Positions 1-34,733 of a stretch of DNA of 36,266 nt are shown here, piece after piece (the first letter of the stretch is position 1; every line of letters begins with the position of its first letter). The notes beneath the pieces are model-generated. The model saw only the letters and a list, made by a program, of their open reading frames with translations, had not been told where the DNA came from and did no database searches. A program made the position numbers and the translations under genes. Origin of the DNA: an uncultured bacterium (lineage in GTDB: Bacteria > Patescibacteriota > Minisyncoccia > Moranbacterales > GWC2-37-73); the NCBI GenBank assembly GCA_903824515.1, contig CAIJXA010000079.1, positions 1 to 36,266 of the forward strand, given 5' to 3'.

Positions 1-141
1 AAAAGGGTATTAATACCCCAGGGCAAGCCCTGGACCCTTCAGGCTCACGAGGCAAGCCTCGTAGGCAAATCACCTTTTGCTGCGTCGCTCGCTGCGAAAT
101 GAAAGATTACTTTCATTTCGCTCACTTTGCTAGATAATAAA
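1..141 (-). repeat. Family A complex palindromic intergenic repeat, copy 1 (3' of aldolase gene)
   Basis: Contains palindrome GGGTATTAATACCC, hairpins CCAGGGC-AA-GCCCTGG and ACGAGGC-AA-GCCTCGT, and the shared blocks ACCCTTCAGGCTCAC, ACCTTTTGCTGCGTCGCTC and GCTAGATAATAAA; the same blocks recur at 5707-5844 and partly at 34651-34733. Confidence 0.85.
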
Positions 142-5638: not shown

Positions 5639-5706
5639 CCCCAACCCCTCCCCAACGTGGACTTACGGGGTCTTTTTTTGTCCAAATTTCAAAAATTAGT
5701 ATCAAT

Positions 5707-5844
5707 GAAAGAGTATTAATACCCCCGAGGCTTGCCCCGAACCCTTCAGGCTCACAAGGCAAGACAGCTCACTCGTGAGCGACGTGTCAAGCCTCGTAGG
5801 CTAAAATACCTTTTGCTGCGTCGCTCACTTCGCTAGATAATAAA
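5707..5844 (-). repeat. Family A complex palindromic repeat, copy 2 (3' of map)
   Basis: Shares ACCCTTCAGGCTCAC, AAGCCTCGTAGGC, ACCTTTTGCTGCGTCGCTCAC and CGCTAGATAATAAA with copy 1; has an extra GCTCACTCGTGAGC palindrome. Confidence 0.85.
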
Positions 5845-9340: not shown

Positions 9341-9349
9341 ATGTTTATC

Positions 9350-9422
9350 GTTCTAATTGTTATAATTGTTCTATGCGTTCTAGTTGTTTTTTCGTTTACA
9401 ACAGTTACAACATTTAGAACAT
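9350..9422. repeat. Family B 9-nt inverted array, copy 1
   Basis: GTTCTAATT GTTATAATT GTTCTATGC GTTCTAGTT ... TTTACAACA GTTACAACA TTTAGAACA. Confidence 0.85.
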
Positions 9423-9430
9423 AACTACCT

Positions 9431-9976
9431 CTAAGCTTCTTTAGTAACCCCCTCTTTGGCTATTTCTTTAACAACTTCTTTTGCCACAACAACTTCGGTC
9501 TTAATCCTGGGTTCTTTCAAGCTTCGTAACGCCTCGATGGTTGCTCTAGCTACATTCAATTTATTTGAAGTCCCCAATGACTTAGAAACAATATCCCGAA
9601 TACCAACCAAATCAACTACAGCCCTAACTGCACCACCAGCAATAACCCCTCTTCCTTCCGGGGCCGGTTTCAAAAGAATTTTTGCACTGCCCATTTTCAT
9701 TTTAACATCATGGGGAATAGTGTTTGCGGATAGTTTAACCGTGATCATGCATTTTTTAGCATCATTATAGGCTTTCTGGATTGCATCAGAAACATCGGAT
9801 CCCTTTGCCACTCCGACACCAACCTGTCCTTTACGATTGCCAATCACGAGTGTTGCGCGAAAACGGAATCGCCTTCCACCCTTAACCACACGAGTAACTC
9901 TAGCCAAATCCAAAAGCTTCTGCTCAAATTCTGGCTTTTCTCTTCTTATTGGTTTTTTTCCTGATCTTTTGTCCAT
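9431..9976 (-). CDS. rpsE: 30S ribosomal protein S5
   Basis: VVKGGRRFRFRATLVIGNRKGQVGVGVAKGSDV. Confidence 0.98.
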   Translation of the reverse strand: MDKRSGKKPIRREKPEFEQKLLDLARVTRVVKGGRRFRFRATLVIGNRKGQVGVGVAKGSDVSDAIQKAYNDAKKCMITVKLSANTIPHDVKMKMGSAKILLKPAPEGRGVIAGGAVRAVVDLVGIRDIVSKSLGTSNKLNVARATIEALRSLKEPRIKTEVVVAKEVVKEIAKEGVTKEA

Positions 9977-10085
9977 AATATTATAAATCTCTAATTAACG
10001 CTAATCTTATCACTAATTATCTCTGATGTTTTATAATTATTCGCGAACATTTGAGAAAATTCGAATCGATTCGCGATTTATATCC

Positions 10086-10436
10086 TTAAAATTTGAGTCC
10101 GCCTTCTCGAGCACCATCCGCCAGTGCTTTAATTTTTCCATGGTATTGATATCCCGATCTGTCAAATGTTACAGTCTCAATCTTCAAAGCAAGGCATTTT
10201 TCCGCAATTAATTTTCCAACTGCCAATGATCCATCAATGGTATTTGAAGCCTTTTTGATTTCTGAAAGTTTTGCACTTGCAAGAGTTTTTCCAGAAATAT
10301 CATCAATAACCTGAGCATAAATCCCCTTTAAACTCTTAAAAACTGAGAGTCTTGGGCGCTCAGCGTTACCTGAAATTTTTGCGCGTACGCGACGCTTTCT
10401 TTGCAATCGATTGCTATTGTTGCTTATTTTTTTCAT
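10086..10436 (-). CDS. rplR: 50S ribosomal protein L18
   Basis: RVRAKISGNAERPRLSVFKS; start MKKISNNSN at about 10436 (ORF extends to 10487 into the repeat). Confidence 0.97.
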   Translation of the reverse strand: MKKISNNSNRLQRKRRVRAKISGNAERPRLSVFKSLKGIYAQVIDDISGKTLASAKLSEIKKASNTIDGSLAVGKLIAEKCLALKIETVTFDRSGYQYHGKIKALADGAREGGLKF

Positions 10437-10443
10437 AATATAT

Positions 10444-10511
10444 CGTGAAACGTAGAGCGCGTAGCGTGAAGCGTTTTGCATTCCCACGTTATGCGTTATG
10501 CGTTATGCAAT
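10444..10511. repeat. Family D 7-nt inverted array, divergent copy
   Basis: GTGAAAC GTAGAGC GCGTAGC GTGAAGC GTTTTGC ... CGTTATG CGTTATG CGTTATG. Confidence 0.75.
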
Positions 10512-11048
10512 TTACTTCGATGATTTCTTTCCTTCTTTTCTTCTTACATGCTCTCCTACATATTTAAATCCCTTGCCTTTATATGGTTCTACAGGTTTAA
10601 GCGCTCTAATGTTCGCAGAAAATTGTCCCACCTCATGCTTATCAATACCCGAAACAGTCATCGTGTTTCCCTCAATCACAACTTCAATTCCGGTTGGAAT
10701 TTCAACCTCCACCGGATGAGAAAATCCAAGTGCAAGTGTAATTTTTCTTCCAGCTAGTGCCATACGAAAACCAACACCATTGAGTTCGAGTTGTTTTTTG
10801 AATCCAACTGTCACACCCTCAAACATGTTCCCAATAATTCTTGCAGTGGTACCCCAAATTGCCGGAGCATTTTTACCTTTACCAATCTTTTCAACAAGAA
10901 TATTTTCCGGGGTAATTTCAATAGCAACGTCCAAATGATGCTGAAAAGTAAGATTACCCTTTGGTCCCTTAACGGAAACCAAATTATTATCCACATTAAT
11001 AGTCACACCCTGCGGGATAACTATAGGTTTTTTTCCAATTCTACTCAT
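10512..11048 (-). CDS. rplF: 50S ribosomal protein L6
   Basis: MSRIGKKPIVIPQGV, VKGPKG, PYKGKGFKYVGEHVRRKEGK. Confidence 0.98.
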   Translation of the reverse strand: MSRIGKKPIVIPQGVTINVDNNLVSVKGPKGNLTFQHHLDVAIEITPENILVEKIGKGKNAPAIWGTTARIIGNMFEGVTVGFKKQLELNGVGFRMALAGRKITLALGFSHPVEVEIPTGIEVVIEGNTMTVSGIDKHEVGQFSANIRALKPVEPYKGKGFKYVGEHVRRKEGKKSSK

Positions 11049-11060
11049 ACTATTTTTATC

Positions 11061-11132
11061 GTTCTAATTGTTATGATGTTTTGACATGTTCTAGTTGCAT
11101 CTCATCTACAACAATTACAACGATTAGAACAC
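11061..11132. repeat. Family B 9-nt inverted array, copy 2
   Basis: GTTCTAATT GTTATGATG ... GTTCTAGTT ... ATTACAACG ATTAGAACA. Confidence 0.8.
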
Positions 11133-11147
11133 TAGCACGTTTATTTA

Positions 11148-11552
11148 TTACCAAACTTCACAGATTATCTCCCCTCCTAAGCCTGATTTCTTTGCATTAT
11201 CTCCAGTCATCATGCCCCTTGAGGTAGAAACAATAGAAATTCCGTATCCGTTTTTAATTCTCTTTATATCAGTCTTTTTGACATAAATTCTCTGACCTTG
11301 TCTACTTACTCGTTTAATCTCTCTGATTGCCGGATTTTTTTCAGTATTCGAAATAACCTCATATCTTAAGGTTATTTTTAGCACTGGGAACTTATCCCCA
11401 TCTTCCTTCTTTACTGATTGGATAAAATTTCTTTGCTGCAAAATTTGAGCAATTGAATATTTTAATTTCGAAAACGGAACAGAAACTTCTTTATGTTTCG
11501 CTCGTTGTGCATTTCGAATTCTTGTAAGCATGTCTGCTATTGGATCTAACAT
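11148..11552 (-). CDS. rpsH: 30S ribosomal protein S8
   Basis: DPIADMLTRIRNAQRAKH, GYGISIVSTSRGMMTG. Confidence 0.98.
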   Translation of the reverse strand: MLDPIADMLTRIRNAQRAKHKEVSVPFSKLKYSIAQILQQRNFIQSVKKEDGDKFPVLKITLRYEVISNTEKNPAIREIKRVSRQGQRIYVKKTDIKRIKNGYGISIVSTSRGMMTGDNAKKSGLGGEIICEVW

Positions 11553-11586
11553 ATTCTAATTCTTTATCCTAATTATATATAAATTA

Positions 11587-11663
11587 ACCGATACGAATCT
11601 ACGAATTAAATGCGAATCTACGAAACTTTTCGTATGTGCGCTTTCGTAGCGCGCTTTCGGATA
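11587..11663. repeat. Family C inverted array, copy 1
   Basis: ACCGATACGAATCTACGAATTAAATGCGAATCTACGAAAC TTTTCGTATGTGCGCTTTCGTAGCGCGCTTTCGGATA. Confidence 0.85.
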
Positions 11664-11849
11664 CTACCAACTACTCTTTTTAACTCCGGGCAATTCACCT
11701 TTGCTTGCTAACTCGCGAAAGCAAATTCTGCAAATATCAAATGCTCGAAGATAACCATGTTTTCGACCACAACGCCAACACCTTCGAACTTCTCGTGTCG
11801 AAAATTTTGGTTTCTTCTCTGCTCTAGCTTGGGTAGATGTTTTTGCCAT
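11664..11849 (-). CDS. rpsN: 30S ribosomal protein S14 (zinc-binding type)
   Basis: [25 protein letters not shown]. Confidence 0.97.
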
Positions 11850-11866
11850 ATTTCTTTAGTCAATAC

Positions 11867-12415
11867 TTATTCGCTTTTTAGCGGAAATCCTAATAATTTA
11901 AATAATTCCAATCCTTGTTGCTGTGAAACTGCGCTTGTTGAGATTGTTACCTGAAGTCCGAAAGTATGCTTCACGCGTTCTGGGGAAATCTCGGGAAAAA
12001 TCAAATGTTCTCTTATTCCGATATTGATATTTCCGCTTGTATCAACTGACTTTCTCCCAATTCCCTGAAAATCTCGAGTTCTTGGAAGGGTTGCCACAAT
12101 CAATCTGTCGATGAATTGCCACATTCGAGCTCCTCGCAAAGTTACTTTCACACCAACTTCCATTCCTTCTCTAGTCTTGAAACCTGCGATAGCTTTCTTA
12201 GCTTTCGTTTTAACTGGTTTTTGTCCGGTAATTACAGTCAAAGAATTTACTACTTCCTCTATTTTATCATTTTCTTTCACAATCTTTCCAATGCCAACAT
12301 TGACCACGACTTTGAGAATTCGAGGCACCGCCATGACACTTTTATATCCGAATTTCTTTTGCATTTCAATTGCAACTGTCTTCGCATATTTTTCTTTTGC
12401 TGGAATTATTTTCAT
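11867..12415 (-). CDS. rplE: 50S ribosomal protein L5
   Basis: VVNVGIGKI, TGQKPVKTKAKKAIAGFKTREG, RDFQGI. Confidence 0.98.
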   Translation of the reverse strand: MKIIPAKEKYAKTVAIEMQKKFGYKSVMAVPRILKVVVNVGIGKIVKENDKIEEVVNSLTVITGQKPVKTKAKKAIAGFKTREGMEVGVKVTLRGARMWQFIDRLIVATLPRTRDFQGIGRKSVDTSGNINIGIREHLIFPEISPERVKHTFGLQVTISTSAVSQQQGLELFKLLGFPLKSE

Positions 12416-12425
12416 ATAATTTATC

Positions 12426-12496
12426 GCTCTAATTGTTATAATTGTTCTATGCGTTCTAGTTGTCTTTCATTTATAACATTTACAACAGTTAGAACA
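12426..12496. repeat. Family B 9-nt inverted array, copy 3
   Basis: GCTCTAATT GTTATAATT GTTCTATGC GTTCTAGTT ... TTTACAACA GTTAGAACA. Confidence 0.85.
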
Positions 12497-12507
12497 TTAA
12501 AACGTTT

Positions 12508-12813
12508 CTAGATTTCCTTGCCACATTTCTTACAAACACGTACTTTTTTTTCTTTAACAAAAGCATAGGATGTTCTCGTTGCTTTACCACATGAAGGGCA
12601 AATCAACATTGCATTTGAAGCATCAAATGGGGCTGCTATTTCAACTCGCTGTCCCTTCTCACCCTCCCTGCGAGCTTTTTTGTGCTTCTTTACAATATTC
12701 ATTTTTTCGACTACAATTTTTCCCTCGCTCGGAACAGTTCGCAAGACTTTTCCCTGCTTACCCTTGTCCTTTCCGGCAATTTTTTTTACGAGGTCTCCTT
12801 TTTTAATTCTCAT
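12508..12813 (-). CDS. rplX: 50S ribosomal protein L24
   Basis: MRIKKGDLVKKIAGKDKGKQGKVLRT; C-terminal CPSC/CKKC. Confidence 0.97.
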   Translation of the reverse strand: MRIKKGDLVKKIAGKDKGKQGKVLRTVPSEGKIVVEKMNIVKKHKKARREGEKGQRVEIAAPFDASNAMLICPSCGKATRTSYAFVKEKKVRVCKKCGKEI

Positions 12814-12824
12814 AATATTTTAGC

Positions 12825-12898
12825 GTTCTAATTGTTATAATTGATCTACTTGTTCTAGTTGTTTTCACTCACTTATAACAATTACAACAGTTAGAACA
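12825..12898. repeat. Family B 9-nt inverted array, copy 4
   Basis: GTTCTAATT GTTATAATT GATCTACTT GTTCTAGTT ... ATTACAACA GTTAGAACA. Confidence 0.85.
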
Positions 12899-12908
12899 TT
12901 ATTTCAGT

Positions 12909-13274
12909 CTACAATACTTCCGGTGCCAATGAAACTATTTTAGCAAATCCTTTTTCACGAAGCTCCCTAGCTATTGGTCCGAAAATACGAGTTCCTTTTG
13001 GTTCCTTACCATCAACAATCACAGCAGCATTTTCATCAAAACGAATATATGAACCATCTTTTCTTCTATAAGCCTTTCTCTGTCTGACTACAACTGCTCG
13101 AATCTTATCTCCCTTTTTAACTAAGCCTCTTGGTTCAGCTGATTTTACACTGCAAACAATAATATCACCAACGTAGGCGTAACGTCTGCGACTGCCACCA
13201 AGAATCTTGAAGCATTCGATTACTTTTGCTCCCGAATTGTCTGCTGCTCTTAATCTTGTTTCTGCCTGAATCAT
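12909..13274 (-). CDS. rplN: 50S ribosomal protein L14
   Basis: [27 protein letters not shown]. Confidence 0.98.
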
Positions 13275-13283
13275 ATAGTTTTT

Positions 13284-13343
13284 GTTCTAATTATTATAAT
13301 TGTGCTACACGTTCTATCTGTTTTCATTTACAACAATCAGAAC
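13284..13343. repeat. Family B 9-nt inverted array, copy 5 (shorter)
   Basis: GTTCTAATT ATTATAATT GTGCTACAC GTTCTATCT ... TTTACAACA ATCAGAAC. Confidence 0.8.
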
Positions 13344-34599: not shown

Positions 34600-34650
34600 A
34601 ATTAATTTAAAATGTAAATCTCAAAATGAAAAATGACAATGTAAAAATAT

Positions 34651-34733
34651 AAATGGTATTGATACCCCAACGAGCCCCTGACTCTTCAGACTCACGAGGT
34701 AGGATATGCCACTAGTTTTGCTAGATAATAAAA
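34651..34733 (-). repeat. Family A repeat, shortened/decayed copy 3 (3' of comEC)
   Basis: GGTATTGATACCCC ... CTCTTCAGACTCACGAGG ... TTTTGCTAGATAATAAA. Confidence 0.75.

Follow-up and report, generated by a model that had tools for sequence, protein, structure and literature searches.

A modular palindromic repeat of Moranbacteria-type genomes is probably a non-autonomous IS200/IS605-type mobile element

The window, which is the whole 36,266-nt stretch of DNA analysed here, opens with copy 1 of a palindromic element at positions 1–141. The S strand of this copy, the TnpA-sense strand, is the minus strand. A class II fructose-bisphosphate aldolase gene follows at 182–1045 on the minus strand (PF01116, E=1e-88), and 40 nt separate its stop codon from the element. 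The contig start interrupts copy 1, and its remaining three bases (AAT on the plus strand, ATT on the minus) lie with the other flank on contig C6. In the relative G003, the aldolase neighbourhood is on one contig with an orthologous copy of a different build. Two other window copies are also on the minus strand, copy 2 at 5704–5844 and the shortened, degenerate copy 3 at 34648–34732.

Copy 1 holds four palindromes. P0 at 5–18 (GGGTATTAATACCC, GGGTATT/AATACCC) lies between H1 and the TTTATT end. H1 at 18–33 (CCAGGGC/GCCCTGG, hairpin CCAGGGCTTGCCCTGG) and H2 at 47–62 (ACGAGGC/GCCTCGT, apical GGCTTGCC) are both read on the minus strand and share an apical GCTTGC. H3 at 94–121 (GCGAAATGAAAG-atta-CTTTCATTTCGC) is an optional, replaceable hairpin of 12 bp that is missing from two otherwise near-identical copies (L014 and L016). 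At 136–141 on the minus strand is the target-derived left flank, TTTATT with the core TTATT, as defined by copy alignment and an empty site. Both strands of copy 1 fold more stably than 200 of 200 dinucleotide shuffles (z of −3.6 and −4.9).

The sequence, coordinates and hairpins that a sequence-only reading had given for copy 1 all agree with these assignments, its "palindrome plus T-run" being P0. It also rightly saw that copy 1 has an extra hairpin, H3, relative to copy 2; copy 2 for its part carries within its H2 loop an insert of 24–28 nt that copy 1 lacks. Copy 2 thus has H2 with the loop insert and no H3.

Other repeats share the window. A separate intergenic repeat of about 100 nt (TTTATCGTTCTAATTGTTATAATTGTTCTA...) recurs between successive genes within 9344–13325, at 9344, 11055, 12420, 12819 and 13278. 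An 81-nt repeat (ACCGATACGAATCTACGAATT...) with a GC-rich inverted tail has three copies, at 11577, 13828 and 16206. A/T-rich runs of AATTTCTAATTTC and AAAATTGAAAATTG units occupy intergenic gaps here (7414, 15031, 24091, 24749 and 25366) and in relatives. Elsewhere, two other families of about 200 nt (L082:8650-8855 and L082:3145-3338) have copies up to 92–95% identical across the genus, and a 209-nt repeat (L088:5916-6124) is 90–94% identical on five other contigs of its genome.

Copy numbers were taken from searches and from genome stretches of the 1.26-Mb genome of the window, G000. Searching the element in its own genome gave 83 matching pieces, and the stretches examined contain at least 33 distinct near-complete copies of 111–190 nt, so the proposed multi-copy family of nested palindromes extends well beyond the window copies. 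Over the length that aligns, nine of the G000 copies are 98–100% identical; the others are more diverged. Several contigs terminate within the element. Two stretches, L043:150-600 and L042:1468-1700, carry copies within a larger duplicated segment with the flanks GTCATCCTGAGCGAAG and AATTAAACTTATCCACCACCCTGTTTAGTATAGAGCC.

Each of the six genomes sampled from the genus has the element, as does most of the family; in the rest of the order it is rare. The named public records that contain it belong to Candidatus Moranbacteria/Moraniibacteriota, a few other Parcubacteria and uncultured bins. A strict pattern search and blastn found no relatives on plasmids, phages or viral contigs, and a literature search for such elements in the Moranbacteria-type lineage found no description.

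The ends are well defined and have no terminal inverted repeats. Along the S strand, TTATT, in most cases as part of TTTATT, immediately precedes the element, which itself ends in TTTATT. Correspondingly, the plus strand of more than 80 copies starts with AATAAA and ends with GATAATAA(A), so that AATAA(A) stands at both ends. Across 83 copies the flank-side AATAA is over 96% invariant and the sixth base 89%. A dozen copies have a deviant flank-side hexamer (AATAAG, AATAAC, AATAAT or AATAGA), and the opposite end is almost always an intact AATAAA. Hence the two ends vary independently, and a target duplication was rejected. The variable 5′-flank target and the fixed 3′ end on the S strand are the IS200/IS605 pattern.

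Insertion is precise, as is evident from the site at C119:11347. It is filled in G000 with AATAAAA at both ends, and cleanly empty in the relatives G004 and G003 with a single AATAAAA. Copy 2 and the C9:33784 copy both lie at sites that are empty in all five remaining genomes of the genus, with diverged flanks in each case. Elsewhere one copy abuts another directly, and the two have one (A)ATAAA-like hexamer in common. Without terminal inverted repeats and target duplication, the element is not a classical MITE.

To relate these ends to known transposases, Y1 transposases were surveyed across the order, and one IS200 subclass was picked out by its end hairpins. Its members (in G005, G037, G029, G070, G078 and G129) have apical hairpins of the GCTTGC type at the IS ends, the left hairpin of G070 having GCTTAC instead. 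The hairpins of the element match those of this subclass in order and strand. Like the element, the subclass is inserted 3′ of (T)TTATT wherever the site is readable, although the IS of G037, G070 and G129 apparently adjoin TTTAAT rather than TTTATT. Three G077 copies are all 3′ of TTATT. The G005 copy (L236, C46:25278-25724) is 3′ of TTTATT within a dinD-like frame, and this frame reads through once the flanks are joined without the insert.

Left-end (LE) and right-end (RE) profiles were built from the subclass IS ends alone and searched in 1.14 Mb, of which the element makes up 2.3%. On the S strand of elements fell 111 of the 119 LE matches, at H2, and 153 of the 159 RE matches, mostly at H1. 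In a census of GCTTGC-apical hairpins over about 1.1 Mb, 157 lie inside elements, without exception on the S strand, and three lie elsewhere. These counts come partly from overlapping loci and related copies and so are not independent events; it is the contrast between inside and outside that carries weight. Within elements there were no or almost no matches to the control loops or to another IS200 subclass used for comparison. Thus, H2 and H1 are homologous to the left-end and right-end hairpins of the subclass, respectively.

The element still differs from the subclass in having no tnpA, a TTTATT end instead of TTCATT, and a longer left arm. The distance from H2 to the cleavage site is about 45–70 nt, against about 20 nt in the IS left end, so the geometry of the IS does not simply carry over to the element. 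Between its recognition hairpins and its cleavage sites the element holds two further palindromes, P0 and H3. A model of guide-sequence pairing at these sites was dropped, as the pairing is not kept in G000-type copies.

The hairpins are also modular. The H2 loop has the optional palindromic insert of 24–28 nt, and H3 is found as GAAATGAAAG..., as GGTCCCGAT..., as another palindrome, or not at all. Among the G000 copies, every state of H3 is found both together with the H2 insert and in its absence. This free combination agrees with the suggestion, already made from the sequence, that hairpin modules are gained and lost independently. The copies at L010, L012 and L013 share a duplicated setting and differ in the H2 insert. 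The stems are preserved across copies by paired changes on both sides. Both kinds of module loss read as falling between short direct repeats (GCTC...GCTC and CAAG...CAAG), as would be expected for slippage at hairpins.

Taken together, the element is most probably a non-autonomous IS200/IS605-type mobile element of the PATE kind, that is, gene-less with fused left and right ends. It is multi-copy, in copies of 111–190 nt, with filled and empty sites, no coding capacity, a fixed 5′-flank target, no terminal inverted repeats, no target duplication, and subterminal hairpins homologous in the same order and on the same strand to those of an IS200 member. At 141 nt it is too short for TnpA and so is not itself an autonomous IS200/IS605 element. 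No autonomous partner with the same ends was found, and no element adjoins any of 32 Y1 loci. The resident intact IS200 of G000 (C112) was rejected as a source because its ends and hairpins mismatch and the control profiles of its subclass find no match in elements.

PATEs, or palindrome-associated transposable elements, are described in Haloquadratum walsbyi (PMC3119063), with a PATE-like element in Halanaerobium (PMC7290912). Like the present element, they are gene-less, lack terminal inverted repeats and target duplication, and have near-terminal palindromes common to IS605/IS200-type elements (PMC3119063, PMC7290912). They also show core deletions between repeats and small palindrome insertions such as SMR-A in Haloquadratum, and have copies in genomes with broken or missing TnpA genes (PMC3119063, PMC7290912). 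The element differs in its Patescibacteria host, in its kinship to a tnpA-only IS200 subclass and in the extra swappable palindromes between recognition hairpins and termini. It is these palindromes in a PATE/IS200-derived non-autonomous element that are new, the element kind itself being known.

The match of hairpins and target suggests that the element is moved by an IS200 transposase, and a Y1 transposase of the G005-type subclass probably mobilises it in trans. The enzyme would act on the S strand in single-stranded form, probably as lagging-strand template, recognise the GCTTGC hairpins and make two cuts, one at TTATT and one at the opposite side, following the element's own TTTATT. The resulting single-stranded circle would be pasted into a new TTATT. 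P0 and H3 may fold out of the way or ride as passengers; they may be lost by slippage between the short direct repeats at the hairpin bases, with unrelated palindromes taking their place. IS608 inserts into the lagging-strand template. Local GC skew is weakly in line with such insertion, as 39 of 60 cases have the S strand on the G-rich side (uncorrected p=0.03).

Among 19 family genomes, the matching TnpA subclass was found in G005 alone, G000 being one of those without it. Moreover, G014, rated 100% complete, has copies 92–98.6% identical and no detectable Y1 transposase. Given these absences and the longer left arm, we only infer mobilisation by the subclass. Small high-copy IS are often lost from short-read MAGs, and in G077 IS fragments are at contig ends; such loss weakens the TnpA absences and does not remove them. 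The same puzzle is met in Haloquadratum, where strain-specific insertions occur though nearly all TnpA genes are broken (PMC3119063). As a tentative extension, and a rather unlikely one, the swappable palindromes might be tolerated with folding restoring the cutting geometry, and the spread without a resident Y1 might come from a transient "hit-and-run" enzyme or a different one.

The G014 case could also mean that the element, still of the same non-autonomous kind, is mobilised by a recombinase or transposase other than Y1 that is present in genomes such as G014, since close copies without any Y1 match lie in a genome rated complete. This is unlikely in view of the specific match to the IS200 subclass in hairpin, strand, order and target, and the transposase may have vanished after use.

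That the element is a REP/BIME-type repeat moved by RAYT-like Y1 proteins of the genus is very unlikely. RAYT-like Y1 genes do exist in G000 (C78, and C19 with a stop) and relatives, and short intergenic palindromes presumably moved by Y1 proteins are common to the element and REP/REPIN (PMC3733652, PMC6006769). However, the element has neither a RAYT gene association, with none of the 32 fetched Y1 loci having a copy nearby, nor, in the relatives' copies, a GTAG or CGTC tag conserved at the foot of the hairpin, and it measures about 141 nt, its ends and its target being defined. Furthermore, G014–G018 have element copies without a RAYT match. Two loci, L164 and L165, encode 230-aa Y1 proteins between inverted GGGGTCAGGTACCTTTTTT repeats and look like RAYT genes that have long terminal inverted repeats. 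By description alone, the element can be likened to BOX, ERIC and similar repeats, which are likewise modular, dispersed, palindromic and intergenic.

The terminator role implied for copy 1 is not supported. The element's plus strand runs with the flanking open frames in 30 cases and its S strand in 27, with 15 mixed contexts, and this lack of orientation bias speaks against a general terminator role. The terminator-like stem has six pairs, three of them G-C, so this is no G+C-rich hairpin with a U-tract placed consistently downstream of genes. The T-tract belongs to the mobile element as its fixed end, TTTATT, and the flank on the mirror side is the TTATT target. In about 20 copies, the AATAAA target has the side effect that the upstream frame (mechanical ORFs) meets its stop codon within the first bases of the element. 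In the sequence-only reading, then, the multi-copy modular palindromes hold, the terminator does not, and the IS200-related mobile nature was missed.

A regulatory or terminator RNA element selected at gene 3′ ends and spread mainly by recombination would suit the mostly intergenic placement, the hairpin and T-run on the S strand and the gene 3′ ends (at least one each) adjoining the element at 64 of 72 scored sites, but it is highly improbable with the unbiased orientation, several lineage-specific sites, no Rfam match, a T-tract accounted for by target and end pattern, and G-T/A-C wobbles in H1–H3 that show no clear strand skew and so point to no RNA function on one strand.

In summary, sites with a hairpin plus T residues of this kind should not be called terminators. 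The element accounts for a conspicuous class of intergenic repeats in Moranbacteria-type genomes and for the assembly breaks there. Its tie to a specific transposase subclass and target makes the mobilisation in trans directly testable, and in the element, as a naturally occurring candidate substrate for single-strand transposition, the exchange of hairpin modules is visible.
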